A stretch of 64,000 bases of DNA from Lysinibacillus xylanilyticus. GTDB taxonomy: Bacteria; Bacillota; Bacilli; Bacillales_A; Planococcaceae. Of the stretch, positions 7,257-24,965 are shown piece by piece. The stretch is from the NCBI RefSeq assembly GCF_001708185.1, contig NZ_MDDN01000001.1, forward strand, positions 909,704-973,703, in the 5' to 3' direction. Position 1 is the first letter of the stretch. The number at the start of each line of letters is the position of its first letter. The notes beneath the pieces are model-generated. The model had not been told where the DNA came from and did not search any database. It saw only the letters and a list, made by a program, of their open reading frames with translations. The translations under genes and the position numbers were made by a program.

Positions 7257-7632
7257 AAACGATCACTCCTTATTTGCTTAGTATAAAGTTTCATATCCGA
7301 TAATTAACGAATGAGCATTCCTATGTGGATACCATCATCACATGGAAAAATACATGAAAGCCTTTCGGGTAACAATGTCATGGACTTAAATGATTACTAC
7401 TAGTCAATTGTCATCAAGCACCTCCCTGCAAATAAAACGATTGCAATTTCTTCAAAATACAAACCTGACTCCTACCTCCTTTCTGAATATTAATAGTTAA
7501 TTATATTTATCTGTAACAATGAACGGTACCTACAGAAAGAAGGGAAATCATTCATGCATTCTATCATTTTGTTGGAAGGATTTAAGCAACATCGATGTAA
7601 GCAGTTGCACAAAATTGCATGATGATTTCATA

Positions 7633-7761
7633 GAGGCCGGGACATAACTGGTCAAAACCTTAAAAAGCGCAAGAAATCAATTTTGAAACGTTGATTTCTT
7701 GCGCTTTTCTTATGTAAAATTTTTAAATTTTGCTTTGAAAATATACTTATAGCCCAGCCTC
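7633..7761. repeat. GAGGCTGGGACA-type intergenic element
   Basis: The element opens with GAGGCCGGGACATAACT and closes with AGCCCAGCCTC, which are inverted ends. Inside is a long hairpin (7664-7711; GCGCAAGAAATCAA pairs with TTGATTTCTTGCGC) followed by T-rich sequence. A second element with the same ends lies at 14469-14618. The rest of 7257-7632 holds no gene. Confidence 0.65.
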
Positions 7762-8036: not shown

Positions 8037-9164
8037 TTATGCTACGACTTTCGAGTCGATTTTCTGTTTCCGTTTATTCTTGTTCTTTTTCTTATACCAC
8101 CACATATAGACACCTGTGAACATCAATACAGATGGCGTAAGACCGCCGATAGCATACAAAATTTTAGTAAATAAACCACCAAAACTACCTGTATGTAATG
8201 GAAGGTGCCATGTTTGATACACAAGTCCACTATCAACATGTGGATCTAACTTGCCCACTACTTTTCCACTATACTGATCTAACCAGACTTTTACATTTCC
8301 ATTCCCTGGATCGAATGAATCGCTGAGACGAAATTCTACTGCGCCTTCTGGAGTTCCTTTTTCCGCCTCTCCAGGCATTCGAATTTGCATAACTGTTCCC
8401 TGAGGTACTTCTTTTTCAGCCATACTTATCAATTCATCAAGTGGAAGCTTACCACTAGGAAGGGCTGTTGAAATAAGCTGCTCTTCTGGAGGCATCACCT
8501 TTGCTTTTGCACCAAACCAACCAAAAATCACTTCATCATATACAAAAAGGGCTCCTGTTAACGAAACAACCAATAAAAACGGAATGGACACTCCACCAAT
8601 GACTTTATGTAAATCATATTGTCGTATAAAAGGGTTGGCATTTCGTCTTAAAGTAAACCCACGTGCCAATTTTTTTATCCCCGGCCACCATAAATATAAT
8701 CCTGATAATGTAATGAAGAAGAAAATAAATCCGATTATACCGATGATTTGCTCACCATTGAAATCTTTTAATAGCAGCTTTTCGTGAAACTCCGCTATTA
8801 GACTAAATAATGCTTGATCCCCTAATGTTCCATTTATGTTTCCTGTTCCTGGATCGACGAATATCTTTTTTTGTTCTTCGCCTTCTTTAAGACGGAATAG
8901 GTAAACTCCTCTAGCTTTAGGTTCACTTGGCGTGTATACACGGTCAATTTGACCATTTGGATATGCTTCTGATACAACTTCTATGGCTTGCTGGTATGTA
9001 ACTTTTTCTCCTTCTGTTACTTTATACAAATTAGGATGCAGCAAGTTGTTTAGTTCAGGTTCAAAGACTAGCAAACTTCCTGTTAAGCCAATCAGTACTA
9101 TAAAAATTCCCGCTAGCATACTAAGCCATAAATGAATTTTTGAGATGATTCTACGTGTTTTAAT
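8037..9164 (-). CDS. PepSY-domain membrane protein, PiuB-like, Fur-regulated
   Basis: Iron-regulated membrane protein with four hydrophobic segments: near the N-terminus (MLAGIFIVLIGLTGSLLVFE), around the middle (IIGIIGFIFFFITLSGLYLWW), after it, and at the C-terminus ending MWWYKKKNK. PepSY-type segments lie between them. Such proteins are thought to reduce or process ferric siderophores at the membrane. The first ATG (9119) lies inside the conserved N-terminal region: codons upstream read IKTRRIISKIHLWLS, a typical family start, yet no ATG, GTG or TTG occurs there. ATT at 9164 sits eight bases after GGAAAGAAGG and may be the start. Confidence 0.8.
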   Translation of the reverse strand: MKTRRIISKIHLWLSMLAGIFIVLIGLTGSLLVFEPELNNLLHPNLYKVTEGEKVTYQQAIEVVSEAYPNGQIDRVYTPSEPKARGVYLFRLKEGEEQKKIFVDPGTGNINGTLGDQALFSLIAEFHEKLLLKDFNGEQIIGIIGFIFFFITLSGLYLWWPGIKKLARGFTLRRNANPFIRQYDLHKVIGGVSIPFLLVVSLTGALFVYDEVIFGWFGAKAKVMPPEEQLISTALPSGKLPLDELISMAEKEVPQGTVMQIRMPGEAEKGTPEGAVEFRLSDSFDPGNGNVKVWLDQYSGKVVGKLDPHVDSGLVYQTWHLPLHTGSFGGLFTKILYAIGGLTPSVLMFTGVYMWWYKKKNKNKRKQKIDSKVVA

Positions 9165-9211
9165 AAAAATTGCCTTCTTTCCAAAAATAATATGAAATTA
9201 TAACGTAGTTT

Positions 9212-9240
9212 ACTATAGAGAGAATGATTATCATTGTCAA
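9212..9240 (-). promoter_or_regulatory. Promoter with Fur box between -35 and -10
   Basis: Minus strand: -35 TTGACA (9240-9235), 17-base spacer, -10 TATAGT (9217-9212). The spacer and part of the -35 are the sequence GAGAATGATTATCATTGTC (9220-9238), 17 of 19 matches to the Fur consensus. Fur-Fe(II) bound here would block RNA polymerase, so the gene should be on when iron is scarce. Confidence 0.85.
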
Positions 9241-9828
9241 TATAAAACTACTAAAATTATGTTAATATATTTATCTTCAATCACATTTAATGATTATAAA
9301 TACCTAAATAACCAATTGACGAATCGGTAAAATAGTTTCATTCATCGTTTCTTAAGGTTGGATGTGCTTAGTCATGGAAATCGTTTTCTAAGTACATTTC
9401 TTTTTCTTCAAGTTATAGTTTATATAGATTGAGGGAGTTTGATCTTTTGTTAAGTGGTTATAAATGTGATACTGACCTTTCCAATTTCGATTAGCCATAT
9501 CTATCTAATCGATTAAGTAAAGGTCAAATGTTTATGAAGGATTTTCATGTTAATAGCTACTGTTAGATATGTGTGAGGGTATAGCGAGGAATGCGAGAGA
9601 AGGTTATGTAGCGAGTGGATTAACACTAGGTATATCTTATAGCAAGCATGCCAAAGAAAGGCTTTAATGTTATGCCTTTTTCTTGGCTTAAGTTTCATGT
9701 GGCAATTAACTTCTTTATAAAAAAATTTGATTATTTTTGAAATCCTTATTGCAATAATGGCTCCCGTTTTAGTACATTTATTCACAAACTTTTCCATTCA
9801 TTGGATTGTTTATAAAAGGCTGTTTTCT
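9241..9828. other. Intergenic, no gene seen
   Basis: AT-rich, no supported gene. A 94-residue minus-strand frame at 9513-9797 has no ribosome-binding site and an unconvincing composition. Confidence 0.5.
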
Positions 9829-10287
9829 TTATTTTACAGCTTCTTTAAAAATGTTTAAAAAGTTGTTATCGTCCTCGAAAACATAGTTTTTCGTATTGTG
9901 GTTTACATAAACTACGCCATCGTCTATATTTAGCCAAAATGAACTCAATGAATCAACAGTGAAGCTTACATAATATTGATATTTAAAGGTAGCTCCATTG
10001 TACTTTTTAAATGTTGCATTTTTAAAACTATTTATAAGCTCTTGCTCTATTTCTTTTGAAATTAAAATGTCTGAAGCTGTTGGTAATGGATTTTCCCTTT
10101 TGGGTGTCTGGTCCGTTGTTCTAATTGCTACGGATGCATTTTCTGAGCTTAAATTCCCATTTTCAAAACCTAATATTTCATTTGAAGAATAATCCCTATA
10201 TTCATCATACAAGTCTTTCCCTTTTATTAAACCAACAAGGCAAACTATGACGATTAAAATGGTGTAAAAAATTTTCTTTACGTTCAA
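9829..10287 (-). CDS. Hypothetical membrane-anchored protein
   Basis: About 152 residues. One N-terminal transmembrane segment (KKIFYTILIVIVCLVGLIKG) is followed by an extracytoplasmic domain of about 125 residues rich in Asn, Lys and aromatic residues (KYQYYVSFTVDSLSSFWLNI). A GTG at 10293 is possible, but GGGGGTG lies directly on it, so TTG 10287 with a 5-6 base spacing is preferred. No family recognised. It is the next gene after 10383-10715 on the same strand, but the terminator between them suggests separate units. Confidence 0.6.
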   Translation of the reverse strand: MNVKKIFYTILIVIVCLVGLIKGKDLYDEYRDYSSNEILGFENGNLSSENASVAIRTTDQTPKRENPLPTASDILISKEIEQELINSFKNATFKKYNGATFKYQYYVSFTVDSLSSFWLNIDDGVVYVNHNTKNYVFEDDNNFLNIFKEAVK

Positions 10288-10361
10288 ATACACACCCCCA
10301 TCTTTTTTTATTTATTATAGATTATACATTGCAACTCTTCTGCCCCATTAGCACAACAAGA

Positions 10362-10385
10362 AAAAAGAGCTGCATATGCAACTCA
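10362..10385 (-). terminator. Terminator overlapping the stop of the upstream small gene
   Basis: Minus strand GAGTTGCATATGCAGCTC followed by TTTTTTC. It resembles the hairpins embedded in the cassette boundaries at 13.7 kb; the flanks (CTTCAAGTAAAGC on one side, CAACAAGAAAAAAGAGC on the other) also match that boundary. Confidence 0.75.
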
Positions 10386-10715
10386 TTGTTCTTCAAGTAA
10401 AGCTCCTGTTATTAAATCAACATTGACTACCTCAAGTTTATAACTTTCCATATCAAGAGAATCTAAAATGTCTCTAAAGTATTCCTCTGTTTGTTCTTTG
10501 TATTGTGTTTTTCCAATTCTAACTGTAAGGACGTTTTCTTCTGGGCTTAATCCCATAGAGTGTACAGTAAATTTCTCTTGTGCAACATCAAAAATTTGAC
10601 CAGAAAACATTTTTTCAATACCATTTGCAGTATCGTTCCCTTCAAATTCATCTTGTGCGATAAAGAGGATAAATCCAGTTACAACTATACATAGCCCAAT
10701 AATAACCTTCTTCAA
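10383..10715 (-). CDS. Hypothetical small membrane-anchored or secreted protein
   Basis: About 110 residues with an N-terminal hydrophobic segment (KKVIIGLCIVVTGFILFIA) and an acidic exported part. GGAGGTGAT lies just before TTG 10715, which fits the start better than the ATG at 10742. The last codons (ALLEEQ) fall in sequence shared with the boundary repeats. No family recognised. Confidence 0.6.
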   Translation of the reverse strand: MKKVIIGLCIVVTGFILFIAQDEFEGNDTANGIEKMFSGQIFDVAQEKFTVHSMGLSPEENVLTVRIGKTQYKEQTEEYFRDILDSLDMESYKLEVVNVDLITGALLEEQ

Positions 10716-10806
10716 AAAAATCACCTCCAACTTCTTTATCACAACTTCCTTATTTGGTAATATATTCTATCGAAACAATTCGCCATTCACTTAAAAATTT
10801 CCTTCT

Positions 10807-10836
10807 TTAACTAAACTGTCCGTTACTTTAAGTACC
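10807..10836. repeat. Cassette-boundary palindrome, copy 1
   Basis: AACTAAACTGTCCGTTACTT followed by TAAGTAC. First of a family of short imperfect palindromes (ACTAAC, 6-8 bases, GTTAGT) that separate single genes from here to 14.8 kb. No gene between this copy and 11035. Confidence 0.65.
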
Positions 10837-11034
10837 ATTCTTTCTATTATATTTCAAGTGTGTTTTTCCACAATCTGAACCTTAGCATAAAAAAGAGCAC
10901 CATTCCTGATACGGAATTTCGCCCGATTATGTAACAAGAGTATTATATTGCTTTTTGTGCTTTTTTTAAATATATCCAATTCTATGTTTTTTTGATAAAA
11001 TTTTTTATTATATTAGTAAAGGCGTTGATAGATT

Positions 11035-11586
11035 ATGAACAAGGTTGCAATATGGGAAAACCTAAAGTCCTTTGGTACGGAATTTTTAGAAATTATTACC
11101 TCAGATACTTTGTCGAAAGTAAACAGTACAGTTATTTCTACGGAAAATGGTATTCCTTATAAAATCGACTACAATATAGAAATAAATGATTGGTTCATTA
11201 AAAATCTTAATATTGAAATACCTAACAAAAAAAAATCTCTTTATATTGAAACTAATTCTGATCTACAATGGTTTGACCAAAAAGGGAACGAAATTAAAGA
11301 ACTTTACGGAGCAATAGATATCGATATTTCCTGTACCCCTTTTACAAACTCATTGCCAATTAATCGGACAAAATGGATAATAAATGAACCTCAGATTTTC
11401 AAAATGGTTTTTATTACAATCCCTGAACTGAACATTAAGAAAGTAGAGCAAATCTACACACTTATTGATGTGGGAAATGATTATCGAATGTTCCATTATA
11501 AAAGCGGTTCATTCGAGTCTATGATCAAAGTCGATAGTGATGGTTTAGTAATTAATTACCCAAAACTATTCAATCGAAAGTATTGA
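11035..11586 (+). CDS. Putative glycolipid-binding protein (DUF1089-like)
   Basis: 183 residues. The pattern fits the putative glycolipid-binding family PF06475: a central GAIDIDISCTPFTNSLPINR, where the family has a G.lDvDl..tP.TNtLPI motif, and the ending DGLVINYPKLFNR. The Trp in LQWFDQKG is also placed as expected. Cytoplasmic, no signal peptide. It starts at ATG 11035 behind AAAGGCG and ends at a terminator. It stands alone between two boundary palindromes. Confidence 0.7.
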   Translation: MNKVAIWENLKSFGTEFLEIITSDTLSKVNSTVISTENGIPYKIDYNIEINDWFIKNLNIEIPNKKKSLYIETNSDLQWFDQKGNEIKELYGAIDIDISCTPFTNSLPINRTKWIINEPQIFKMVFITIPELNIKKVEQIYTLIDVGNDYRMFHYKSGSFESMIKVDSDGLVINYPKLFNRKY

Positions 11587-11590
11587 CCTC

Positions 11591-11620
11591 AAAGCTCGGA
11601 TAATCGTCCGAGCTTTTTTA
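11591..11620 (+). terminator. Intrinsic terminator
   Basis: AAAGCTCGGA pairs with TCCGAGCTTT around a short loop, followed by a T-run, directly after the glycolipid-binding-type gene. Confidence 0.85.
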
Positions 11621-11681
11621 CATAACTATCATTGTGTTTCGTACTTTTGTTTCAATTACGAGGTTAATATACCCCTTCTTA

Positions 11682-11706
11682 TTCAACTAACCTGCTCCGT
11701 TAGTAA
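11682..11706. repeat. Cassette-boundary palindrome, copy 2
   Basis: TTCAACTAACCTGCTCCGTT followed by AGTAAA. ACTAAC and GTTAGT are the paired arms. It lies between the glycolipid-binding-type gene and the recombinase. Confidence 0.75.
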
Positions 11707-11781
11707 AATCACTCCTTATGTTTAGAATTCTATTAAGTTGGCAATAATCCCTTTTATATTACTATTTTAGGGGGAATGGAA

Positions 11782-12621
11782 TTGTTACTGTCAAAAGCAT
11801 GGACTTTGTTTGAAGCTGATAAACGAATAGAGGGCTTTTCGCCACAAACGCTGAAGGCCTACCAGTTACAGTCTTTTCTATTAATTGGTTATTTTAAGGA
11901 TATAGAGATGGAATTGCTTGACACTAATCAACTGAAGGAGTATCTTGCTATATCCGGCAAGCACTTAAAACCAGCCAGTCTTGCACACCGTATCCGCTTT
12001 ATGAAATCATTTTTTCGTTGGTCTCATGAAGAAGGATACCTGAGTAAGAATCCAACTTCCAAAATTAAAGAACCGAAAGTAGGAAAGCGTATACCCAAGT
12101 ATTTAACCGAACGGGAGATTGAACACCTTCGTGAATCCTGTCATTCCGCAATGGAAAAAGCAATTTTCGAATTCATGTTTTCTACTGGTTGCCGAATTGG
12201 AGAAATAGTTGCGTTAGAAAAGAACCATATTAATTGGTCCAATCAATCCGCAATCGTTAGAGGAAAAGGTGATAAAGAAAGGGAGGTTTATTTTAATACG
12301 CGTTGTGACATATGGCTTAAACGATATATTGAAAACCGTACTGACAATAATCCTGCCATCTTTGTGACAGTAAGGCAGCCACATAAAATGAGTGTTGCCC
12401 AAATGCGATACATCATCAAGCGGATATCAAATCGTGCTGAAATCAATAAAGAAATTCATCCACACCAACTTAGACACAGCTATGCAACTCATTTGTTGAA
12501 CAATGGAGCTCCAATAGAAGTCATACAAAGTCTTATGGGGCATGAGAAAAGCGAAACAACTAGGATCTACGCTCAATTAAGCGGGAGGCTAAGGAAAGAG
12601 TATTATCAGAAGTGTTTTTAA
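11782..12621 (+). CDS. Tyrosine recombinase (XerC/D-like phage integrase family)
   Basis: About 279 residues. An N-terminal SAM-like core-binding domain (SPQTLKAYQLQSFLL to about residue 85) is followed by a catalytic domain with all expected residues: Arg in STGCRIGEIVAL, Lys in RGKGDKERE, HPHQLRHSYATH (His and Arg), His in LMGHEKSETTR and the nucleophile Tyr in RIYAQLS. AGGGGGA touches ATG 11776, so the in-frame TTG 11782 has the better spacing. It is not next to any phage gene. It sits alone between two boundary palindromes and ends at its own terminator, so it may act on these repeats; this is inference. Confidence 0.88.
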   Translation: MLLSKAWTLFEADKRIEGFSPQTLKAYQLQSFLLIGYFKDIEMELLDTNQLKEYLAISGKHLKPASLAHRIRFMKSFFRWSHEEGYLSKNPTSKIKEPKVGKRIPKYLTEREIEHLRESCHSAMEKAIFEFMFSTGCRIGEIVALEKNHINWSNQSAIVRGKGDKEREVYFNTRCDIWLKRYIENRTDNNPAIFVTVRQPHKMSVAQMRYIIKRISNRAEINKEIHPHQLRHSYATHLLNNGAPIEVIQSLMGHEKSETTRIYAQLSGRLRKEYYQKCF

Positions 12622-12626
12622 ATGTA

Positions 12627-12661
12627 AAAGGAGCAGTGTCTTAAAAGACATTGCTCCTTTT
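12627..12661 (+). terminator. Intrinsic terminator of the recombinase gene
   Basis: AAAAGGAGCAGTGTC pairs with GACATTGCTCCTTTT. It ends exactly where the next boundary palindrome begins. Confidence 0.85.
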
Positions 12662-12690
12662 GACTAAATCGCACCCGTTAGTTCAACAAG
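12661..12690. repeat. Cassette-boundary palindrome, copy 3
   Basis: TGACTAAATCGCACCCGTTA followed by GTTCAACAAG. It overlaps the end of the GrpB-like gene on the minus strand, so the repeat supplies that gene's last codons and stop. Confidence 0.65.
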
Positions 12691-13210
12691 AGGTTCTTTT
12701 TAAACTCCAGTTTATAGCTTTTTTTACTAATTCGTTAACAAAAAATTCTTTACCTTCTTGATACTTATAAATATCATTTGGAAACTGTTTTGCTAATTTT
12801 ATTTTTAAATCCCCGTAACTTCTTGCGTCCTCTGGATTATTAATTAAGTATTCCTTGAAATCTAAATGTATCCTAATATTTTCATTTCCCTCTTGATAGA
12901 TATGTACGTGGTGGGTTCTTCTTTCCTTATTCTTCGGAAAATACCTTCTACCTGGTATGCCATTTTCACCTCTAGGGTCATACCCTATTGAAGACATTTT
13001 TTCGTTGTATAAATCAACTTTCTCAATATCATTCACAATAACTAAGATGTCTACAATTGGTTTAGCAAAACCAATTGTCGGTATAGCTGTACTCCCTATA
13101 TGATGAATTTCAAGCAATTCATCTTTAAAAATATCTTTAAGTATAATTTCTTCTTTATAAAATTGTGTTACCCAATCCTCTGTCCAAGGACGTATTTCAG
13201 CTTTTCTCAT
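12683..13210 (-). CDS. GrpB family (UPF0157) nucleotidyltransferase-like protein
   Basis: 175 residues. The family core is plain: HHIGSTAIPTI, then AKPIVDILV with the paired acidic residues of a nucleotidyltransferase fold, GRRYFPK, and THHVHIYQ. Close in length to typical stand-alone GrpB proteins. The in vivo substrate of this group is not established. ATG 13210 behind GAGGGGTG is chosen over the GTG six bases upstream. Monocistronic, bracketed by boundary palindromes. Confidence 0.85.
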   Translation of the reverse strand: MRKAEIRPWTEDWVTQFYKEEIILKDIFKDELLEIHHIGSTAIPTIGFAKPIVDILVIVNDIEKVDLYNEKMSSIGYDPRGENGIPGRRYFPKNKERRTHHVHIYQEGNENIRIHLDFKEYLINNPEDARSYGDLKIKLAKQFPNDIYKYQEGKEFFVNELVKKAINWSLKRTSC

Positions 13211-13257
13211 CGGCACCCCTCATTAACTTAAAATTTGATTTTATTTTGGTGATTCCT

Positions 13258-13336
13258 TCTTTCACTAAATGCCCCGTTAGTTTATTAAAAAAAGAGTTGT
13301 CTTAACAGTTCAAAGTTCACCCCCGATAGTTTAAGT
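13258..13336. repeat. Cassette-boundary composite, copy 4
   Basis: Three parts: TTCACTAAATGCCCCGTTAG (left box), a hairpin around AGTTGTCTTAACAG behind an A-run, and CCCCCGATAGTTTAAGTG (right box). The right box recurs at 24.29 kb. The order box, hairpin, box is shared with copies at 13.7 and 24.2 kb. Confidence 0.65.
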
Positions 13337-13503
13337 GTGATTCTTCACAAAATCTTAGAAATTCGCAATGAAAAGCGGATCACATCATATTTATTAAATT
13401 CCTCATATTGTTCAGTTAGGTCATATTGAATTTTAATGATACACATTGTTCCATTAAGTACTTTATCATATAATTTTAATTAGAAAAATTTGGAGGTATT
13501 ACA

Positions 13504-13624
13504 ATGGATTCTTCATCTATATTCACCATTTCTATAGCAATGGCAGCTTTCGTCATCACGGGTATTAATGAAAAAAAATTAAAAAATTAGAAAAACGTAT
13601 CGAAGAACTTGAAAAAAATAAGTA
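13504..13624 (+). pseudogene. Small membrane protein with a poly-A frameshift
   Basis: TTGGAGGTATTACA leads to an ATG at 13504 and codons for MDSSSIFTISIAMAAF and more, a hydrophobic helix. After NEKK a run of eight A's shifts the frame: the zero frame stops at 13590, while the +1 frame continues into KKLEKRIEELEKNK and stops at 13624. The two parts together make a plausible 41-residue single-pass protein with a short charged coiled coil. It may be a real frameshift, programmed slippage or a sequencing error. Confidence 0.5.
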
Positions 13625-13697
13625 ATTAATTCAATATAGTTATGAAATTTATAGTTTCACTTTAGGATATCTGTTTAAAGTAACCTTCTACTCCTTC

Positions 13698-13860
13698 TTA
13701 TTCAACTAAACTGTCCGTTAGTTCAATAAGAAAAAAGAGCTGTCTAAGCAGCTCTATGGTCTTCAAGTAAAGCACCCCGTTAGCCATCCATGTAGCGCAA
13801 AAACCAGCGCTACTCCACAGAAAATGAAAGATGATTACGTTCTTTCATGAGAGTTCTATA
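13698..13860. repeat. Cassette-boundary composite, copy 5 (longest)
   Basis: Left box TTCAACTAAACTGTCCGTTA, then the terminator hairpin GAGCTGTCTAAGCAGCTC behind an A-run (T-run on the minus strand), then right box AAGCACCCCGTTAGCCATCC, then about 60 bases shared with 22.5 kb (CACAGAAAATGAAAGATGAT). Read on the minus strand, the right part is open to a stop inside the box (HGWLTGCFT). Confidence 0.7.
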
Positions 13861-13930
13861 ACATTTTGTTGAGCTAAAACAAACTGTGAATTGAAAAGTT
13901 TTCTACTAGAAAAACAGGATTAGAAATCCA

Positions 13931-14305
13931 TTATTTATAATTAGTAAGCCAGTCAATTAATTGATTATAGTTACTGGAGAACATTACATTGCCTTTAGTA
14001 TTAGACTTTTCAAGATGAATTAGAATATCCCCTTCTTCTAATAAAAAAGCGACTGCAATAGAGTTCTCTAATATATTATTAGAGAATAATTTATCTTTCC
14101 ACAATTTTTGTATAGAATAATGCTCTGGAGTATAACCTTTACGATTAACTAACAACTTAAACTTTTTGTCTTGTTTAATAAATGAAAAGCACGTTTTTTC
14201 AAATGAATTAAACCATGTGTTTACATCAGCAAGAGTTATGTAACCTGTTAAATTAGTAATAATAATATCTTCAAAAATGGATGTACTTACATTTTTAACA
14301 TTCAA
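13931..14305 (-). CDS. Hypothetical protein, possibly STAS-like
   Basis: 124 residues, soluble, no signal peptide. Alternating strands and helices (SIFEDIIITNLTGYITLADV, then KFKLLVNRKG, then SIAVAFLLEEG) recall a SpoIIAA/STAS-type fold, but I cannot place the family. Start TTG 14305 behind AAAGGGAGTG. It is the only gene between two boundary repeats. Confidence 0.6.
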   Translation of the reverse strand: MNVKNVSTSIFEDIIITNLTGYITLADVNTWFNSFEKTCFSFIKQDKKFKLLVNRKGYTPEHYSIQKLWKDKLFSNNILENSIAVAFLLEEGDILIHLEKSNTKGNVMFSSNYNQLIDWLTNYK

Positions 14306-14392
14306 TTAAAAAACACTCCCTTTTTATCATTATAAACCAAATAATGTAAGTGGGTATACATTTTAATATTGCACAGTTCGAAGACATTACGC

Positions 14393-14440
14393 TTGTTAAA
14401 TTAACCTGCTCCGTTAGTTTAAGTACATTTCTTCACAATC
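14393..14440. repeat. Cassette-boundary palindrome, copy 6
   Basis: AAATTAACCTGCTCCGTTAG, then TTTAAGTACATTTCTTCACA. The right flank matches copies at 10.82 and 13.32 kb. Confidence 0.65.
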
Positions 14441-14468
14441 TCCAAAGTGAATTTTCCAATGAAAAAAC

Positions 14469-14618
14469 CGAGGCTGGGACAGAACTCGATTATTTTGAAA
14501 AATAGCGAAAACAGATAATAACTTTTTCGCTTCAATGAGTAGAGTGTTCCTTCCTAAATCCAAAAAATGTTAGACCAATGCAATCGGTCTAACATTTTTT
14601 CTTTTTGTCCCAGCCTCC
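14469..14618. repeat. GAGGCTGGGACA-type intergenic element, second copy
   Basis: Starts CGAGGCTGGGACAGAACTCG and ends TTGTCCCAGCCTC, inverted ends. Inside, ATGTTAGACC pairs with GGTCTAACAT and is followed by a T-run (14568-14600), a plus-strand terminator. From here to 15017 there is no supported gene; a hydrophobic stretch at about 14630-14760 (ILIIIISLVFHGMGMYFII) may be a decayed membrane gene. Confidence 0.65.
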
Positions 14619-14789
14619 ATCTTTTTTATTCGAAAACAGAAGTGACAATATTAATTATAATTATTTCTTTAGTATTCCACGGTATGGGTATGTATTTTAT
14701 AATTAAAAATACATGTATAGGACAAATAAAGTTGGAAATGCAATACCTTATAAAATGTGTGTTCTAACGTTTAATGATAAAACAAACAC

Positions 14790-14816
14790 CTTATTAAACT
14801 AAATTGCTCCGTTGAA
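14790..14816. repeat. Cassette-boundary palindrome, copy 7 (degenerate)
   Basis: TTATTAAACTAAATTGCTCC followed by GTTGAAT. The right arm has lost the AGT. It closes the first run of cassette-like units. Confidence 0.5.
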
Positions 14817-15016
14817 TAGCAACAATCTTTTAGAAAACAACCTATATCTTTTATTGCTTAGAAGTTTAAGAAATAGACTTTAATGTACAAATAATTGATA
14901 TAAGCTCCTTTTAAATACTGCAACATTAGATTGATTTAATTGTTGTAGTGATTTTGTTGTTTAATTTTTGATGTAAGATACCCCACTCTACTAAAAAATA
15001 TAATAATAACGTCGTT

Positions 15017-15144
15017 TTAAAATCTAAGTTTTATTCTACAATAGCGCCCATGAGCCTCCTCGGCAATGTCTACACCGACAACTAGATGCATTGAGGAAAT
15101 GTTTTCAATGAGTTGTTTTTCTTGTCCTACGATTTAAACTTCAT
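15017..15144 (-). pseudogene. IS110-family transposase N-terminal remnant
   Basis: Minus strand: CCAGGAGGATGTTCTACG precedes an ATG at 15144. After four codons a frameshift leads into QLIENISSMHLVVGVDIAEE, the opening of IS110-type (DEDD) transposases, where VGVDIAK.TH carries the first catalytic Asp. The frame then ends at 15019. The rest of the element is missing. A hairpin and T-run at 15185-15225 probably belong to the element's leader. Confidence 0.6.
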
Positions 15145-15284
15145 CGTAGAACATCCTCCTGGATGGTTGGCTTTTGAGGTATCGACCTCGTATGCAACTC
15201 TATCGTACCGAGGCGCTTTTTTTTTGCAAAGATCAAATTTTTCGTTTCATAGGAATTCTATCGGGATCTTAAATCTACAAAGAC

Positions 15285-16244
15285 CTAATTTAGCAGTTTG
15301 AAAGATTTATTAATATTCAAATCACCGTACAGTTGGTCAAACAGCTTGCCGTCTTTCGACTGGGGAGCAAACGGATTGGACTGCGGTACTGTATACACAT
15401 ACACCATGCCGTTGGCTTTCGTAATGACGCTCCCTACAGGCGGGCCTTCTTCGCTGGAGAGGCGACTCCAATCATTTTTGGAAAATACGGAGATCATCAG
15501 CAGCATCTCAGTATCTTTTCCATTTTCGGTAGTATAATCGAACTGCACGACATGCTTAGCCGATGGCATGATTTGATTTGCATTTTTACCTGAATATTGG
15601 CTTGTTTTGTAATGTCCGTTCCATGAAACAGGCAATTTAAAAATGAAGTTTGCCTGAGAATTCGTATATAGTTCTTGGTTATCCGCCAAAACATTTTTGA
15701 GTTTCTTTCCTTCCCAAGTTAAGATCAGATGATCCACGTAACCACCATTTCCTCCTTGAGGGGCCGTTACGATAATATCGTTGACTTTGTTGCCTGTATA
15801 GTCACTAATAATCAACTTTGGTTCTCGGGCAGATTCCCCATACAATTTTCCATCCGTCCCTTTGAACATCCAATCATATTTTATGTATCTTTTAGTTTTT
15901 CCCTCCTGCACGATGATGGATAAATCATTCGCATACGCATCTAGTTTTCCATCAATCTTTTCTTTTGTACCCACCAATATCACATTGTCTTTAACTGAAT
16001 TACCGTCAATATCGGACACTTTGCAGTCGAGTACATACGTATTTTCCTTAAGTTTAAGTTCGGGTACTCTAAATTTTTGACCAATTTCTACTTTTGGCAA
16101 CGTTTTTTCGGATTGCTGAGCCACCACTTTTGGATCTGAAGCTGCCTGTTTTGCCATCGAAACTTGTGGCGCCCCAATTCCAACTGCACAAATTAAACCT
16201 GCCAATGCTAAATAAGAAATTTTCTTTACGTATTGCTTCTTCAT
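15285..16244 (-). CDS. Secreted protein of unknown function
   Basis: 319 residues. A signal peptide (KKISYLALAGLICAVGIGAP, cleavage near VSMA) is followed by a soluble domain. It contains KYDWMFKGTDGKLYGES, then KLIISDYTGNKVNDIIVTAP, a pattern seen in proteins whose beta structure reads out 'lexical' FG-GAP-like repeats, but I cannot assign a family. ATG 16244 has GGAGG 8 bases before it. It is second in an operon behind the repeat protein at 16333-16866. A decayed second copy of its 5' end lies at 19866-20060. Confidence 0.7.
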   Translation of the reverse strand: MKKQYVKKISYLALAGLICAVGIGAPQVSMAKQAASDPKVVAQQSEKTLPKVEIGQKFRVPELKLKENTYVLDCKVSDIDGNSVKDNVILVGTKEKIDGKLDAYANDLSIIVQEGKTKRYIKYDWMFKGTDGKLYGESAREPKLIISDYTGNKVNDIIVTAPQGGNGGYVDHLILTWEGKKLKNVLADNQELYTNSQANFIFKLPVSWNGHYKTSQYSGKNANQIMPSAKHVVQFDYTTENGKDTEMLLMISVFSKNDWSRLSSEEGPPVGSVITKANGMVYVYTVPQSNPFAPQSKDGKLFDQLYGDLNINKSFKLLN

Positions 16245-16332
16245 TTTCTAAACCTCCATTTATTCATTTTTGTTTCTACATAAGTAAGACGTATGAGGTC
16301 CCCTAAAAAGTTTTTTTATGACACTCTATATA

Positions 16333-16866
16333 TTACTTATTGCTTGTTTCTACTTGCTTGGCGTCTGTTACTTTTGCAGCTTTTGTCAGCTTTCCTTCTT
16401 TTTCAAGCTGAGCAATTAGCTCATCTAACGTCATTCCTTTTTCTTTAGCCATTTTTTCTAAATTGACAGGTTCATTAGATTTTGAGTTTTCCGCTGATTT
16501 AGTAGCCTCAGTTGTTTCGGCAGCTTTTGTCAGCTTGCCCTCTTTTTCAAGCTGAGCAATTAGCTCATCTAACGTCATTCCTTTTTCTTTAGCCATTTTT
16601 TCTAAATTGACAGGTTCATTAGATTTTGAGTTTTCCGCTGATTTAGTAGCCTCAATTGTTTCAGCAGCTTTTGTCAGCTTGCCCTCTTTTTCAAGCTGAG
16701 CAATTAGCTCATCTAACGTCATTCCTTTTTCTTTAGCCATTTTTTCTAAATTGACAGGTTCACTAGATTTAGTAGTTTCCCACATGTCGTTGCTCGCAGC
16801 ATAGGCAGATCCTGCAACAACAGATAACCCCAGCATAAGTGTAGCAATTGTTAATGTTTTCTTCAT
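16333..16866 (-). CDS. Secreted repeat protein with three near-identical 48-residue units
   Basis: 177 residues: signal peptide (KKTLTIATLMLGLSVVAGSA, cleavage after YAA), then three copies of a unit built on LEKMAKEKGMTLDELIAQLE and KEGKLTKAAE joined by a Ser/Asn/Lys/Glu linker. The DNA of the units is almost identical over about 144 bases, so they arose by recent tandem duplication. No family recognised. AGGAGG precedes the ATG. A paralogue with two units is at 20369-20785. It is first gene of an operon with 15285-16244 and has a direct-repeat promoter. Confidence 0.8.
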   Translation of the reverse strand: MKKTLTIATLMLGLSVVAGSAYAASNDMWETTKSSEPVNLEKMAKEKGMTLDELIAQLEKEGKLTKAAETIEATKSAENSKSNEPVNLEKMAKEKGMTLDELIAQLEKEGKLTKAAETTEATKSAENSKSNEPVNLEKMAKEKGMTLDELIAQLEKEGKLTKAAKVTDAKQVETSNK

Positions 16867-16967
16867 ATTGAATTCCTCCTAAAATATTTTTAGCCTCTAC
16901 CATAAATGAATACTGTAATTAAATTGAATCAGGTTGGTTGCCTGCATCCTTTCTATTAGATGTTACG

Positions 16968-17000
16968 AGTGTATAACAATCCATGTTAAATCCTTGTTAA
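16968..17000 (-). promoter_or_regulatory. Promoter with TTAACA-N5-TTAACA direct repeat
   Basis: Minus strand: TTAACA (17000-16995), AGGAT, TTAACA (16989-16984), then -10-like TACACT (16973-16968) ten bases further. Direct repeats with 11-base period placed where a -35 would be are typical for OmpR/PhoB-class activators; PhoP of Bacillus binds TTAACA-type repeats with this spacing. The same arrangement precedes the paralogue at 20785. Confidence 0.7.
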
Positions 17001-17080
17001 GAGAAATACTTCTTGAAAATTTGTAAAAAAAAAGCTTTAAATAAACAGGGTAAACTGCCATTCAAAGTCTTTTTCATTTT

Positions 17081-17644
17081 TTATATACCAAGTGTAATTT
17101 CTAAACAAGTACCGCAGTTTTCGTTGTCAGTAACAACGATAGTTCCGTTGTGCTTGGCTATGATACTTTGCACAATGGAAAGTCCCAAGCCTGATCCACC
17201 CAATTTACGAGAGCGTGATTTATCCACTCGGTAAAAACGCTCAAATATATTCTTTTTTTCCTCATCAGGGATACCAATTCCCGTGTCTTTAATTTTAACC
17301 ATTATCTTCTTATTATCAGATTTGACATTAATCATTACCTTCCCGCCGTCAATATTGTATTTAATACCATTTTCAACAATGTTATAAAACGCTCGATAAA
17401 GTAAATCTGTATTTCCGCAAACAACACTATTATCGCAATCCCAATATAGTTTAACCTCTTTTTCATCAGCGATATGAGATAGTTCAGAAACAATATCTCC
17501 AAAAACATCCTTCAAGCAGATGGTTCCATTCTCAAATCCATCATTCATATTTGTCATATCTAAAAGGGTGAATACATGCTCGGATAATCGCTGTGTTTGC
17601 TTTTCAAAAACGTTAATGAGTGCATCAATTCTTCTGTAGAATGT
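17081..17644 (-). pseudogene. Histidine kinase, C-terminal half
   Basis: Minus-strand frame from about 17644 reads FYRRIDALINVFEKQTQRLS (end of the dimerisation domain), then the N-box IVENGIKYN, G1 DTGIGIP, F-box IFERFYRVDKSRSRK and G2 GGSGLGLSIVQ, ending at 17081. It lacks the phosphoacceptor His, membrane part and an upstream start. The missing H-box half lies on the other strand directly beside it (17656-17791). Confidence 0.8.
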
Positions 17645-17655
17645 GCGTTTTTCTT

Positions 17656-17791
17656 GGAAACGATGGACATTCTACCAATGATGAAATAGCGGAGCTAACG
17701 CAATCTTTTAATGAAATGACGGATAAGTTAAACAATGCTTTTATGATGCAAAGCCGTTTTTCCGCAAATGCAGCCCACGAATTCCGAACCA
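17656..17791 (+). pseudogene. Histidine kinase, HAMP and H-box fragment, inverted
   Basis: Plus-strand codons read STNDEIAELTQSFNEMTDKL (HAMP end), then SRFSANAAHEFRT with the phosphoacceptor His, and stop matching kinases right after it. This is the piece that should precede the minus-strand C-terminal half next door, so one kinase gene has been split by an inversion with a breakpoint near 17650. Confidence 0.7.
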
Positions 17792-17868
17792 CTTGTGGTT
17801 TTAAAAACAAAGGTCGGTGTATCGAACTGAATATTCCGATAAATAATTACATGTATTTTGCAAAAAAA

Positions 17869-17913
17869 TGCAACTTTACACGGAGCTTGCCCACCTCTCC
17901 GTGTAAAGTTGCA
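17869..17913. terminator. Strong hairpin, possible bidirectional terminator
   Basis: TGCAACTTTACACGGAG pairs with CTCCGTGTAAAGTTGCA around an 11-base loop; 17 perfect base pairs. T-rich only on the minus side. It would end transcription of the VanY-type gene. Confidence 0.6.
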
Positions 17914-17962
17914 ACTTAATCTTATCTTTGTAAACTCTTATTTTAAAACATCATAAACTAAC

Positions 17963-19135
17963 TTATTTAGTACTAGATTTGGAATAATACTCTTCAAGAG
18001 TAATTCCTTTACCCATAATTGTTTGGGCTATTGATTTTCCTACATATCGAAGATGCCATGGCTCGTATTGATAACCAGTAATAGACTCTTTTCCTTGAGG
18101 ATAACGAATGATAAATCCATAATCAGCTGCATGTGATTTCAGCCATTTTGCTTCTTTAGTACCGCCAAAACAATCCTGTGCCGCACATTTACCATTCCCT
18201 CCTGTAACATCAATGGCAAGACCTGTTTCATGCTCACTTGTTCCAGGTAATGCACTATACGTGATGGCTTTGTCATAACCATCCCTTTTTACGTAATTAT
18301 TAAATAGGGTAACTTGTGTCGCATGTGATCTGTATGCAGATACACCAAGAAGACTCACTCCTTGTTTCTTAGCATCGGCAAATAGTTTGCCAATGGCTAT
18401 AGATGCTTCATTTCGCATTTTTCTTTTTTCTGTCTTTTCTTTAAAAATAAAGGGTATTGAAGTATATACTAAGTCTTTTGGTACATAATTTTCTGGGAGC
18501 TTATTTTTTTTATTAACTAATACTGAAATACTTTCAGGCTGTGTAACAACATGAATAGTATCAGATGAAGAATTGCTTATTTTTACATATTGACTGCTGA
18601 CATAACCTGTTTGACCTTTTATGCTAACCTTTAACCACCCATTGGAAGCTTTCCCTGTAACCGTTAACTGCGTTCCCTTTTTAACCGTTGTTATTATTTT
18701 ATTAGCGGTAGAAGGGCCAGTACGGATATTTAAATTATCAGTTGCTGTATAGGTTGTAGCTGCTACATTAGATTTATTTTCAGGCTTTTTAACAGCATTA
18801 CCTGTAGAATTGGTTACTTTCACATATTGACTGCTGACATAACCTGTTTGACCTTTCACGCTAACTTTTAACCACCCATTAGAAGCTTTCCCTGTAACCG
18901 TTAACTGCGTTCCCTTTTTAACCGTTGTTATAATTTTATTAGTGGTAGAAGGCCCCGTACGGATATTTAAATTATCAGTTGTCGTATAGGTTGTAGTTGC
19001 TGCACTAGCTATATTCGGTCCAAATCTCTCAATATTTGATAGATTAAAATCTATGGGACATGCAAATAAAATTGTGAAGGCAAAACCGATAGCTACGAAT
19101 TTTTTGTTCAAGAAAGTTCTCTTAAATTGTGTCAT
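17963..19135 (-). CDS. D-Ala-D-Ala carboxypeptidase, VanY family, with two SH3b domains
   Basis: About 390 residues, secreted. After a signal segment (KKFVAIGFAFTILFACP) come two SH3b repeats (NLNIRTGPST ... GYVSSQYVK) almost identical in protein and DNA, then a VanY domain: SAYRSHATQV, GTSEHETGLAIDV (zinc His and Asp) and EPWHLRYVG (third zinc ligand region). It trims the D-Ala end of cell-wall stem peptides; the SH3b pair would hold it on the wall. ATG 19135 with GGAG nine bases upstream is preferred to TTG 19150. Monocistronic. Confidence 0.88.
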   Translation of the reverse strand: MTQFKRTFLNKKFVAIGFAFTILFACPIDFNLSNIERFGPNIASAATTTYTTTDNLNIRTGPSTTNKIITTVKKGTQLTVTGKASNGWLKVSVKGQTGYVSSQYVKVTNSTGNAVKKPENKSNVAATTYTATDNLNIRTGPSTANKIITTVKKGTQLTVTGKASNGWLKVSIKGQTGYVSSQYVKISNSSSDTIHVVTQPESISVLVNKKNKLPENYVPKDLVYTSIPFIFKEKTEKRKMRNEASIAIGKLFADAKKQGVSLLGVSAYRSHATQVTLFNNYVKRDGYDKAITYSALPGTSEHETGLAIDVTGGNGKCAAQDCFGGTKEAKWLKSHAADYGFIIRYPQGKESITGYQYEPWHLRYVGKSIAQTIMGKGITLEEYYSKSSTK

Positions 19136-19590
19136 TTTAAACATCTCCAAATACTAATACTCTTCAAAACAAACAAATGTAATATTATAAAAGTTTTATT
19201 TTATCTATTAATTACTGAATTCAATAACCCTCTCTTTCTATTTTTAGGGTATAAATAAAAATTGAATAACAAAACAAAAAAGAATAACAGGCGTGTTGAT
19301 TAACCATTTTTATACATTCGAATTAATTCGAAAAGGCTGATGTCTGCTACGGGCTACTCGCTTTCCTGCGGGAGTCTAATGGCCCTACGCTACAATCAGT
19401 TAAAATAGAAATATATTAGCAAAATAGCAACAAGATCCATTTATCGCTCAATAATAAAACTATTTTCTCCTAGTCAACACATCTGAAAGAATAATAAATT
19501 TTAACCATGCTGATAATTCCCTCTATCTATGAAATCCACTTTCAGCTACTTAGAATATAATAATCTCAATTCTGAGTCAATAAAATTAAT
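19136..19590. other. Intergenic with a repeat fragment
   Basis: No gene. At 19340-19385 is a worn piece of the chromosome-wide repeat (GGGCTACTCGCTTTCCTGCG). The rest is AT-rich. Confidence 0.4.
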
Positions 19591-19869
19591 ATGGTAAAAA
19601 TATGATTTTTTATTGTTTTTGTATTAATAACGCAACGCTTTCTAACCTTTAATACTATTACATCTAAAGTTCAAACCAAATACATGAGATATAATAAGCA
19701 AAAAGCATTACTTGAAACAAAAACGACCATTGTACAGAATTCGGGAGAGATAATATAAAAAAATCGCCATTTTAATTTTTCTAAAGACTTATATGATGAA
19801 CTTTCATTAAAGAAAAAAGTAGAAAATTTATTAAAATTTCATTCCAATAAGTTTAAAAATCATAAACTT
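19591..19869 (+). pseudogene. Decayed gene for a membrane-anchored protein
   Basis: From an ATG at 19591 one frame reads about 90 residues broken by two in-frame stops (TGA after four codons, TAA in the middle). It contains a hydrophobic helix (FFIVFVLITQRFLTFNT) and a natural-looking soluble part (KDLYDELSLKKKVENLLKFH). It ends abruptly where the duplicated secreted-protein fragment begins, so that junction cut it. Family unknown. Confidence 0.4.
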
Positions 19870-20060
19870 TTGGCAACGTTTTTTCGGATTGCTGAGCCAC
19901 CACTTTTTGATCTGAAGTTGCCTGTTTTGCCAACGAACCTTGTGGTGCCCCGATTCCAACTGCACAAATCAAACCTGCCAATGCTAAATGAGGAATTTTC
20001 TTTACGTAATGCTTCTTCTTTTTCTAAACCTCCATTTATTCATTTTTGTCTCTACATAAG
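19866..20060 (-). pseudogene. 5' fragment of a second copy of the secreted protein gene
   Basis: Closely matches 16090-16310, that is, the signal peptide region and leader of the gene at 15285-16244. The start codon is lost: the reference has CTTCTTCATTTTC (CAT = start) and this copy has CTTCTTCTTTTTC. Only the first 50 or so codons remain, then the sequence joins an unrelated decayed gene at about 19866. Confidence 0.75.
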
Positions 20061-20368
20061 TAAGACGTATGCGGTCCCCCAAAAAGTTTGTTTTTGGATT
20101 GGAGGAAAAAGAAATCTTTTTTATTTTTTTATACGTAGTACCTAAAGGGATAACATCAGGTAAATGCGGATTTACATCGCTATGGAAAAAAGACTGTCAA
20201 TAGACAGTCCTGTTATTAAGCTAACGCTACACGGATTAGGCAGTAACGATAAAGAATAAACCCTTATTCATTACGGCCTTTTAAATTCGACACCTTACAA
20301 GTAAAAAGCCGTTGCAAAAGCTCCTCTTAGCAGAAGTATCCTCTTGTGACAGCTCCAGTTACTATATA

Positions 20369-20785
20369 TTATTTAGTGCTTGTTTCTATTTGCTTAGCCT
20401 CTGTTAATTCAACAGCTTTTGTCACCTTGCCTTCTTGTTCAAGTTGATCAAGTAGTTCATCTACAGTGATTCCTTTTTCTGTAGCCATTTCTTCTAAGTT
20501 AGCAAGTTCATTGTCACTAGAAATGTCATTGTTCGCAGCCTCAGTGTTTGTTTCTACTTGCATGGCCTCTGTTAATTCAACACCTTTTGTCACCTTGCCT
20601 TCTTGTTCAAGTTGATCAAGTAGTTTATCTACAGTGATTCCTTTTTCTGTAGCCATTTCTTCTAAGTTAACAAGTTCATTGTCACTGGAATTAGTAGTTC
20701 CAAGATCATTGTTCGCAGCCAGCGCAGAACCTGTAACAACAGATAACCCTAGTGTAAATGTAGTAATTGCTAATATTTTTTTCAT
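20369..20785 (-). CDS. Secreted repeat protein, two-unit paralogue
   Basis: 138 residues: signal peptide (KKILAITTFTLGLSVVTGSA), then two units based on NLEEMATEKGITVDELLDQL and EQEGKVTKAVELTEA. It is the paralogue of 16333-16866, with one unit fewer and diverged sequence. AGGAGG precedes the ATG. The gene that should follow in the operon survives only as a fragment at 19866-20060. Function unknown. Confidence 0.75.
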   Translation of the reverse strand: MKKILAITTFTLGLSVVTGSALAANNDLGTTNSSDNELVNLEEMATEKGITVDKLLDQLEQEGKVTKGVELTEAMQVETNTEAANNDISSDNELANLEEMATEKGITVDELLDQLEQEGKVTKAVELTEAKQIETSTK

Positions 20786-20817
20786 AATTAAAATCCTCCT
20801 ATCGATTAGATGCTATC

Positions 20818-20850
20818 AGTATATACCGATGCATGTTAAATCCGTGTTAA
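20818..20850 (-). promoter_or_regulatory. Promoter with TTAACA-N5-TTAACA direct repeat, second copy
   Basis: Minus strand: TTAACA (20850-20845), CGGAT, TTAACA (20839-20834), then -10 TATACT (20823-20818) ten bases on. The layout and most bases match the promoter at 16968-17000, and the -10 is better here. Confidence 0.72.
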
Positions 20851-20869
20851 GTAAAAACCGTATACATTC

Positions 20870-20970
20870 CCATACAGTTTGGATTTACATAACAACGGAA
20901 TTAGGCAGTAACGATCGATTAAGGATAAACCCTTGTTGGGGTAGCACCAGGAAAATGCGGATTTACAACG
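20870..20970. repeat. Diverged duplicate of sequence at 20157-20275
   Basis: Both stretches share TTAGGCAGTAACGAT, a TAAACCCTTRTT block and AAATGCGGATTTACA in shuffled order. They flank the repeat-protein gene on its two sides. 20061-20368 and 20851-21085 hold no gene. Confidence 0.5.
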
Positions 20971-21085
20971 TTAAGAAATATACACGATTTTATGTACACT
21001 AAACGGTAAGCCATAAACGTGGAAATATTGATGTATCAAGTGTTTGTGCTTCCTGTATAAAAAGCTGTATAAAGAATGTTCATAA

Positions 21086-21128
21086 GAAAAGCCACGAAAC
21101 GTTGATGTAACAACATTTGTGGCTTTTT
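21086..21128 (+). terminator. Hairpin with T-run
   Basis: AAAAGCCAC and GTGGCTTTTT pair around a loop with GTTGATGTAACAAC, itself a small stem. No plus-strand gene precedes it closely; it resembles the hairpins embedded in the boundary repeats. Confidence 0.6.
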
Positions 21129-21149
21129 GGTGTGTTTCCAAACTTCCAT

Positions 21150-21212: not shown

Positions 21213-21230
21213 AAAGAATATTAAAGAAAC

Positions 21231-21970: not shown

Positions 21971-22101
21971 GAAATGTTATCAAGCTTGATTTGGGAACGT
22001 TATTTTGTATTTGATTGTATAGCTTAAATAAACGCATCAATCGAACTCGATGTAGGTTTTACTCGTGTTGTGCTTCGCTTTTAAAGCATTGATTGTTTAT
22101 T

Positions 22102-22464: not shown

Positions 22465-22563
22465 CTTGTTTCACTAACGCTACCCGTTAGCCATCCATGA
22501 AATGCAAAAATCAGCACTTCACCACAGAAAATGAAAGATGATTAAGTTCTTTCATGGGAATTT
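22465..22563. repeat. Cassette-boundary repeat, copy 8
   Basis: TTCACTAACGCTACCCGTTA followed by GCCATCCATG and a 60-base tail that matches 13780-13860 (CACAGAAAATGAAAGATGAT). Here left and right boxes are fused without the hairpin. It lies just downstream of the hisS-like gene. Confidence 0.7.
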
Positions 22564-24193: not shown

Positions 24194-24227
24194 TTGGAAT
24201 ATTTATAAAATATTGTTGAACAACACT

Positions 24228-24312
24228 CTTCAACTAACCAGCACTGTTAGTGAAAAAGCGATTGCTCTAATTGAACAATCGCCCCCGATAGTTTACGTTC
24301 ATTTATTCACAA
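24228..24312. repeat. Cassette-boundary composite, copy 9
   Basis: Left box CTTCAACTAACCAGCACTGT followed by TAGTG; hairpin GCGATTG/CAATCGC behind an A-run; right box CCCCCGATAGTTTACG. Same order as at 13.26-13.34 kb. Confidence 0.65.
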
Positions 24313-24887: not shown

Positions 24888-24965
24888 CTAACCTTTTCCT
24901 TCATTTATGAAGAAAAAGGCTCTACCCATTATGAAGTAAAGCACTCCGTTAACCATCCATGAAGT
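24888..24965. repeat. Cassette-boundary composite, copy 10
   Basis: Left box CTTCTTCAACTAACCTTTTC, hairpin around TTTATGAAG with an A-run, then right box AAGCACTCCGTTAACCATCC followed by ATGAAGTGC. On the minus strand the right box encodes the last residues (HGWLTECFTS) and stop of the methyltransferase fragment. Confidence 0.65.

Follow-up and report, generated by a model that had tools for sequence, protein, structure and literature searches.

Can a Bacillales chromosome exchange single genes at short repeated sites, much as integrons exchange their cassettes? The question is raised by a 64,000-nucleotide stretch of Lysinibacillus xylanilyticus DNA (contig NZ_MDDN01000001.1, positions 909,704 to 973,703 of the forward strand; hereafter the window), in which single genes are divided by short palindromic boundaries, here called boxes, around a gene encoding a tyrosine recombinase. 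Integrons are the textbook system for single-gene exchange. A first-pass annotation of the window, made from its sequence alone, had taken seven such boundaries for recombination sites and the units between them for exchangeable genes, in the manner of integron cassettes but with a different site. Our comparisons lead us to a similar reading, to which we assign a probability of roughly 0.8: the boxes would be the marks of a Bacillales gene-cassette system in which a XerA-like recombinase likely joins box halves. Each box would be a core recombination site with two inverted arms of 12-13 nt and a spacer of 6-8 nt between them, and the recombinase would fuse the left half of a box with the right half of a second box. 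Single genes together with a box would be excised and then inserted elsewhere in a fixed orientation, and the recombinase gene would itself be one of the units that its product moves. That this recombinase is the enzyme at work, that excised units pass through a circular form and that the box serves as a core site in double-stranded form are our inferences.

Breaks in homology at the boxes

Exact-core searches and strict gapped patterns missed most boxes, and a profile built from nine seeds was adopted for this reason. It was run on the window and 84 further loci, together 85 Bacillales sequences and 1.48 Mb. This analysis, which the first-pass annotation had proposed, revealed 690 boxes at 12 bits or more and 817 at 10 bits or more; no match at either threshold was found in Markov-shuffled sequence. 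All seven boundaries were recovered on the + strand with 12.5-31.7 bits. The ACTAAC/GTTAGT core ascribed to them is present, but exact copies of it number only two in the window, at 11686 and 24233; the core usually consists of ACTAA(A/C) and GTTAG, separated by a spacer of 6-8 nt. Seventy-five boxes drawn from many genomes gave the consensus nTTnTTCAACTAAACTGCnCCGTTAGTTnAATAAG, and two spacer types were distinguished, type I (CTGCNNC) and type II (GCACCC).

Breaks in homology between unrelated loci often coincide with boxes. The recombinase unit is 96-97% identical in two congeners, where its flanks are unrelated. Among the 84 loci compared with the window, 17 have recombinase units of at least 80% nucleotide identity. 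Fifteen of these 17 matches begin at 11673-11689 (those of L037 and L040 at 11717-11719) and 13 stop at 12679-12713; three (L031, L035 and L037) stop at 12623-12658, and one (L028) meets the end of its contig. In an alignment of the units (17 upstream, 16 downstream) conservation begins and ends inside the two boxes, with exceptions of a similar kind. Apart from the recombinase unit, the pieces common to the window and the 84 loci are short site repeats and a few others.

All loci were then compared with one another, with the recombinase, the group II intron gene ltrA and IS110 masked, and matches shorter than 200 bp, below 72% identity, touching these three genes or with a median depth above 6 were excluded. 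Ends of the remaining informative alignments lay within 30 bp of a box in 99 of 399 cases (control 4.2%), and in 60 of the 399 this held for both partners; because boxes can lengthen a BLAST match by some bases, these ends are not exact to the nucleotide. An earlier count, in which 126 of 566 ends fell at most 20 bp from a box (2.6% in the control), still included some recombinase, intron and insertion sequence (IS) copies and is superseded by this one. Between species, breakpoints thus coincide with boxes far above chance, as the exchange of units would predict.

Several recurring units and blocks have their ends at boxes. A 566-bp unit is 93% identical in Neobacillus niacini and Peribacillus glennii, and a unit of 370-380 bp occurs twice in one N. 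novalis locus and once more in N. soli. Records named Neobacillus niacini and Mesobacillus maritimus have 6161 bp in common at 99.2% identity, and 2.77 kb at 98.5-98.8% recurs in N. niacini, M. maritimus and a third record with three different right neighbours, which diverge directly after CTATCCTGC. We regard these two blocks as recent transfer events, judged by their near identity across records. Two apparent duplications in L072, compared with L063, lie at joins of N and are probable assembly artefacts; only the left breakpoint of that pair, which is at a box, was retained. In the window, 11 of the 12 boxes (11 on the + strand, one on the - strand) fall in one 23-kb stretch (4.4-27.4 kb), with the run of boxes spanning 10.3 to 25 kb, rather than at random around core genes. 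In a congener the flanks of this stretch are kept but enclose 1.3 kb of different sequence, and a recombinase gene of 99% identity stands elsewhere on that contig. Within the stretch, the region 22564-24195 has a 97% identical copy at a different place in the congener G154, and unit 24354-24927 has a 93% identical copy elsewhere in G149, with both copies ending 12-14 bp from a box centre. Taken together, the comparisons show units and multi-unit blocks to recur at unrelated places with homology ending at boxes, and the recombinase unit to obey the same boundaries; recombination itself we infer. That unit copies in other species often begin and end at boxes is likely because a travelling recombinase swaps the units.

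The position of the junction was examined in pairs of boxes with only one flank in common. Forty type I boxes of 11 families formed 86 pairs that share the right flank. Their excess identity hardly differed from zero at most of the variable positions in the left arm, was -0.07 and 0.17 at the dinucleotide of the spacer and reached 0.72 from the G of GTTAG. In type I pairs sharing the left flank, identity persisted at most positions as far as the base preceding CTGC (0.68) and was lost at the dinucleotide. For type II boxes, left-shared pairs (76 pairs, 45 boxes) gave 0.53 at the base before GC, mixed values of 0.16-0.61 in the spacer, 0.28 at the G of GTTAG and values close to 0 at most of the positions that follow, and six right-shared pairs gave 1.0 at most positions from the spacer onward. 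By comparison of these pairs the junction falls within the spacer of 6-8 nt, bounded on one side by the base preceding CTGC/GCAC and on the other by GTTAG. The same right half was found on a type I box in one place and on a type II box in another in 17 of 137 right-shared pairs, against 0 of 93 left-shared pairs; the spacer type therefore tends to go with the left half, and partner spacers may differ.

Boxes of the two types are often combined. A box II follows a box I within 40-80 bp in 69 of 146 I-to-II neighbours, and the reverse order at less than 60 bp was found in only 4 of 152. Between box I and box II of such composite sites lies a hairpin that varies in sequence while the boxes persist, as had been noted from the window. 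An A-run separates box I from the hairpin in 31 of 39 composites (a T-run on the other side of the hairpin in 2 of 39), which makes the hairpin terminator-like for the strand opposite the boxes. This is also the strand of most unit genes (349 of the 400 longest unit open reading frames (ORFs)). Such hairpins within the sites would argue against a common cassette promoter. In the window and in many related loci the recombinase gene stands where the hairpin of a composite would be, with a type I box typically 60-75 bp before its start and a type II box about 40-50 bp after its stop.

The units are mostly single genes. Between boxes we counted 548 units (488 without masked mobile genes; median 645 bp); 286 of the 393 shorter than 1200 bp contain exactly one ORF of at least 80 aa, 20 contain two and 87 none. 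Among the 80 of 355 eligible unit proteins that were surveyed, we found 62 Pfam families with at most two members each and eight defence models with one member each. The boxes lie on the strand of the recombinase in 741 of 762 cases around 78 recombinase genes, and the box strand is C-rich at 71 of 77 loci. On the main contig of genome G003, 37 of the 41 boxes listed fit a strand switch at the dif match: of the 30 ahead of this match, 27 are on the - strand, and of the 11 beyond it, 10 are on the + strand. By comparison among loci, box polarity is shown to be uniform within an array and to follow replication-linked base skew.

The recombinase and box-rich genomes

The window recombinase (281 aa) has all six catalytic residues (R140, K164, H230, R233, H256 and Y265) and scored 221.6 bits on the XerA model NF040815 (cutoff 220); four relatives scored slightly under this cutoff (208.5-214.6 bits). 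Integron integrases of the IntI type are marked by an extra domain; the cutoff of the IntI model TIGR02249 was reached neither by the window protein (90.0 bits, cutoff 265) nor by the four relatives (86.8-100 bits), and on the XerC and XerD equivalog models the window protein stayed under the cutoffs (200.8 and 205.4 bits; cutoffs 335 and 330). Its nearest solved structures by sequence are XerC-like 4a8e (E 1.6e-33), XerD 1a0p and XerA 5hxy.

A genome scan for relatives gave 242 coding stretches, the best 80 of which correspond to 78 loci under about 20 Bacillales genus names and one record labelled Chryseobacterium. Box density around these 78 genes is 14.6 per 10 kb in the first kb upstream and 8.9 in the first kb downstream, compared with 2.7-4.7 per 10 kb at a distance of 8-10 kb. 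The gene is multicopy in several genomes, inside cassette arrays, and several copies are at contig ends. Relatives also occur on large plasmids, the closest being 95% identical, in Sporosarcina; a pair of Peribacillus frigoritolerans plasmids has a similar annotated gene order around a degraded recombinase. In plasmid record L020, labelled Arthrobacter citreus NEB 577, the recombinase is 65% identical and the boxes near it have divergent spacers (CTGCCAT, GCATCA), which hints that site and enzyme have diverged together; the organism label of this record looks doubtful because the relatives of this recombinase are Bacillales. Genes of group II introns (ltrA) stand near boxes in L020, L031 and L036, in L031 directly after the recombinase terminator. 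Group IIC introns prefer terminators and attC sites.

Per-genome box counts are lower bounds, scoring having been limited to 33 or 150 candidates. Genome-wide, at least 98 boxes at E of at most 1 were found in the window's genome and at least 110-123 in three relatives (at least 123 in G003). Three box pairs of equal score lie about 0.9-1.06 kb apart on contig C1 of G002 (4010870/4011838, 4186284/4187198 and 4267495/4268551), which suggests tandemly duplicated units. In a set of 200 genomes from the order, a recombinase match at E 1e-60 occurs in 48, and 145 have one or more boxes at E 0.01. All 24 genomes in which that match has at least 85% identity (some matches being only partial) are box-rich, defined as 17 or more boxes (at least 17-46), compared with 25 of the other 176 (Fisher P = 1e-17, a value that overstates the association because the cut was set after the counts were seen and the genomes are related). 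Among the box-rich genomes, six that lack an intact recombinase were examined; four contain fragments of the gene and two none, as would be expected of decayed arrays. This association favours the dedicated recombinase over host Xer enzymes as the probable actor.

Sibling recombinases of the same subfamily (loci L138-L159; 54-67% identity, from related genomes) behave otherwise, with a single match per genome at E 1e-60 in 22 of 22 genomes. In the 15 sibling loci that were scanned no box boundaries were found (0-3 boxes in at most 20 kb at 13 loci, 6 and 12 at the other two). Inspection by eye revealed a conserved half-box shortly 3' of the stop codon in 10 of the 22, beyond which the genomes diverge in sequence; it lies at +102 in L143 and at about +57 to +63 in L144, L148, L149 and L152, and in L140 it may lie further out. 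Possibly the half-box is an attI-like entry point and the sibling recombinase a fixed platform. The 37 relatives on viral contigs, almost all below 61% identity, serve as a negative control for the specificity of box and recombinase, being nearly devoid of boxes (13 matches of at least 10 bits in 496 kb, strands unmerged); the exception, L179 (69% identity), has a box-like sequence after its stop.

Alternative explanations and known systems

A number of observations weigh against the cassette reading. Most informative alignment ends (300 of 399) lie away from any box; L037 and L040 have no upstream box, L031, L035 and L037 have no clean downstream box, and the three units of the window that have copies at other places in congeners stop close to boxes and not cleanly inside them. 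In the type I right-shared set, two left-arm positions show an excess of 0.48 and 0.74 and the C of CTGC one of 0.73, and two recombinase-unit families (10 and 9 boxes) supply 19 of the 40 boxes. The type I left-shared set amounts to 7 pairs and 12 boxes, and the dinucleotide in the spacer goes with neither of its neighbours. Of the 14 mixed-type pairs listed, most involve a single CCATCC element, and at least one looks mistyped. The 25 genomes noted above are box-rich despite having no close recombinase match, and the replication-linked polarity could arise from selection on gene direction alone.

Four other explanations were considered. Box I, hairpin and box II may together fold into an attC-like hairpin of which one strand is exchanged; we regard this as doubtful, though it deserves real weight. 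The preferred order and spacing of the composites, the tolerance for differing partner spacers, the polarity fixed relative to replication and the inner bases AAC/GTT all agree with it. Against it, the box arms are strongly conserved in sequence, and many boxes are solitary, among them the two that bound the recombinase unit. Across 39 composites the arms expected to pair showed no covariation (z at most 1.5), and of six folds (three composites, both strands) five had box I paired with itself and one had pairing between the arms of box I and box II. By these same observations the boxes do not behave as attC sites, which are folded single-stranded sites with little sequence conservation. Alternatively, host XerC/D-type enzymes could recombine the boxes, as proposed for the pdif modules of Acinetobacter. 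The dif-like architecture (two arms, short spacer) and the box-rich genomes without an intact dedicated recombinase would fit, yet we think it very improbable: box-rich genomes track the dedicated recombinase, and the box sequence is unlike the B. subtilis dif used as query. The boxes are also nearly all oriented one way with differing partner spacers, whereas, according to PMC11705084, the xrs pairs flanking genes are often opposed and Xer excision needs identical central regions.

Mobile elements of the IS type, namely the recombinase unit and, as small non-autonomous copies, the box-hairpin-box composites, might instead insert between ordinary genes; this would explain why the unit and the composites are the commonest recurrences against the window and why several recombinase genes are at contig ends, as for multicopy elements. 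It would require inverted-repeat ends and static intervening genes. The two end boxes of a unit are instead in direct orientation, one polarity holds for nearly all boxes, the junction is within the box rather than at its outer ends, and ordinary gene units, beyond the hairpins, recur from box to box; we hold this explanation to be very improbable. Homologous recombination between dispersed terminator repeats has in its favour that boxes and hairpins are repeated sequence, but the matching stretch is about 30 bp and imperfect, and junctions cluster in the 6-8 nt spacer where such recombination would spread them along the repeat. We give it hardly any credence.

The cassette reading, which we prefer, resembles integrons and above all sedentary chromosomal ones: the arrays consist of mostly single-gene units of diverse function, with a site for each and uniform polarity. 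The recombinase lies on the strand opposite to most unit genes, and in integrons the integrase likewise lies opposite to most cassette genes. Array orientation tied to replication and arrays without an intact integrase (CALIN) are described for integrons in PMC8946536 and PMC9024848, respectively. The systems differ in that the recombinase here falls outside the IntI model and is itself a unit; it and most of its close relatives have ordinary boxes on both sides and no attI site. The sites, two-arm boxes conserved in sequence, come in two spacer types, and many hold a terminator-like hairpin. On sequence grounds the system is an integron analogue by working principle and not an integron by membership, because it has no IntI, no supported attC fold and no attI. 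The first-pass wording, cassettes with a different site, agrees with this. We lean slightly towards the further view that it is an integron of the Bacillota in its own right, of independent origin, with an integrase that is itself a mobile cassette, cassettes that are insulated by the terminators of their insertion sites and share no promoter, and the sibling recombinase with its fixed attI-like half-box as sedentary platform.

The pdif/xrs modules of Acinetobacter plasmids, according to PMC11705084, likewise place genes between short two-arm sites with a central region, and their exchange is inferred from mosaics. They depend on host XerC/D and their flanking sites are often opposed, whereas the boxes are nearly uniform in orientation, differ in consensus from the dif query and form long, often chromosomal arrays. 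XerA, XerC and XerD are the closest solved relatives of the window recombinase and the catalytic residues are in place, but it scores below the XerC and XerD equivalog cutoffs and is multicopy in several genomes, inside cassette arrays. The siblings share the subfamily and, in part, the half-box; they differ in being single per genome and not bounded by boxes.

Firmicutes have almost no integrons, a scarcity whose cause is described as unclear; a survey found one complete integron among them (PMC9024848). In the open-access literature we found no paper apparently describing this box and recombinase system. A parallel system with about a hundred sites per genome would help explain the shuffling of accessory genes in Bacillales, would offer an independent case from which to learn what a cassette system needs, and might yield a cassette-trapping tool for Gram-positive bacteria.

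Layout of the window

The features of the array are listed below; boundary coordinates and bits are those of the box-profile matches within the window.

Table. Boxes, hairpins and genes of the array in the window.
Feature	Coordinates	Strand	Remarks
Degenerate composite site (box I, terminator hairpin, box II)	10332..10411	+	Overlaps 3' end of 119-aa ORF 10383-10742 (-)
Type I box	10804..10832	+	19.9 bits
Unit gene, Glycolipid_bind (former DUF1089)	11035..11586	+	PF06475, E 1.7e-40
Type I box, left end of recombinase unit	11680..11708	+	25.6 bits
Tyrosine recombinase, 281 aa, carried as unit	11776..12621	+	PF00589, E 4.6e-40
Terminator hairpin of recombinase gene	12630..12657	+	From sequence; most close relatives in the alignment have it conserved as part of the unit
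Type II box, right end of recombinase unit	12659..12691	+	23.1 bits; overlaps 3' end of GrpB gene
Unit gene, GrpB family	12683..13216	-	PF04229, E 3.2e-45
Box of next site	13258..13288	+	16.6 bits; then hairpin and weak type II box near 13309-13335 (from sequence)
Short ORF, 28 codons, ATG at 13504	13504..13590	+	No family match
Type I box of best composite site	13699..13731	+	31.7 bits; similar composites at many other loci
Terminator hairpin of composite	13736..13755	+	From fold; preceded by A-run
Type II box of composite	13760..13784	+	18.6 bits
Unit gene, 124-aa orphan	13931..14305	-	ORF; Pfam match sub-threshold only
Type I box	14394..14425	+	23.4 bits
Degenerate type I box	14793..14813	+	12.5 bits
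Box left of histidyl-tRNA-synthetase-like (HisZ/HisS) unit	22467..22491	+	12.9 bits
HisZ/HisS-like unit	22659-23954	-	Gene named by reading its translation
Type I box right of HisZ-like unit	24227..24255	+	15.8 bits
Weak type II box	24932..24951	+	10.4 bits
Single - strand box of window	45659	-	Box profile

The GrpB, DUF1089 and 124-residue orphan genes of the first-pass annotation were all verified. Its 41-residue membrane ORF reads as 28 codons, and no ORF of at least 40 aa is listed at that place. The hairpin at 13736..13755 would terminate - strand transcripts because the A-run lies ahead of it. The composite at 10332-10411 is a repeat of 13715-13776 and is 78-89% identical to composites in L027, L039, L041 and L025.

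A 94-nt hairpin element with CCATCCATG is joined to the right arm of a box at 13768-13861 and again at 22475-22568. GTTAGCCATCC stands after 10 of 690 boxes (8 loci) and TTTAAGTRYA after 47 of 690 (37 loci); these look like shared 3'-end modules of units. An Rfam scan of positions 9000-26000 gave six matches, none of which reached the gathering score. Dispersed repeats at about 26292-26503 (about 210 bp) and 7632-7761 (about 130 bp) have many copies in congeneric genomes and are, as far as seen, unrelated to boxes. Positions 15285-16866 and 19853-20785 hold a duplicated pair of genes for a secreted protein, one copy being truncated, with internal repeats of 144 nt.

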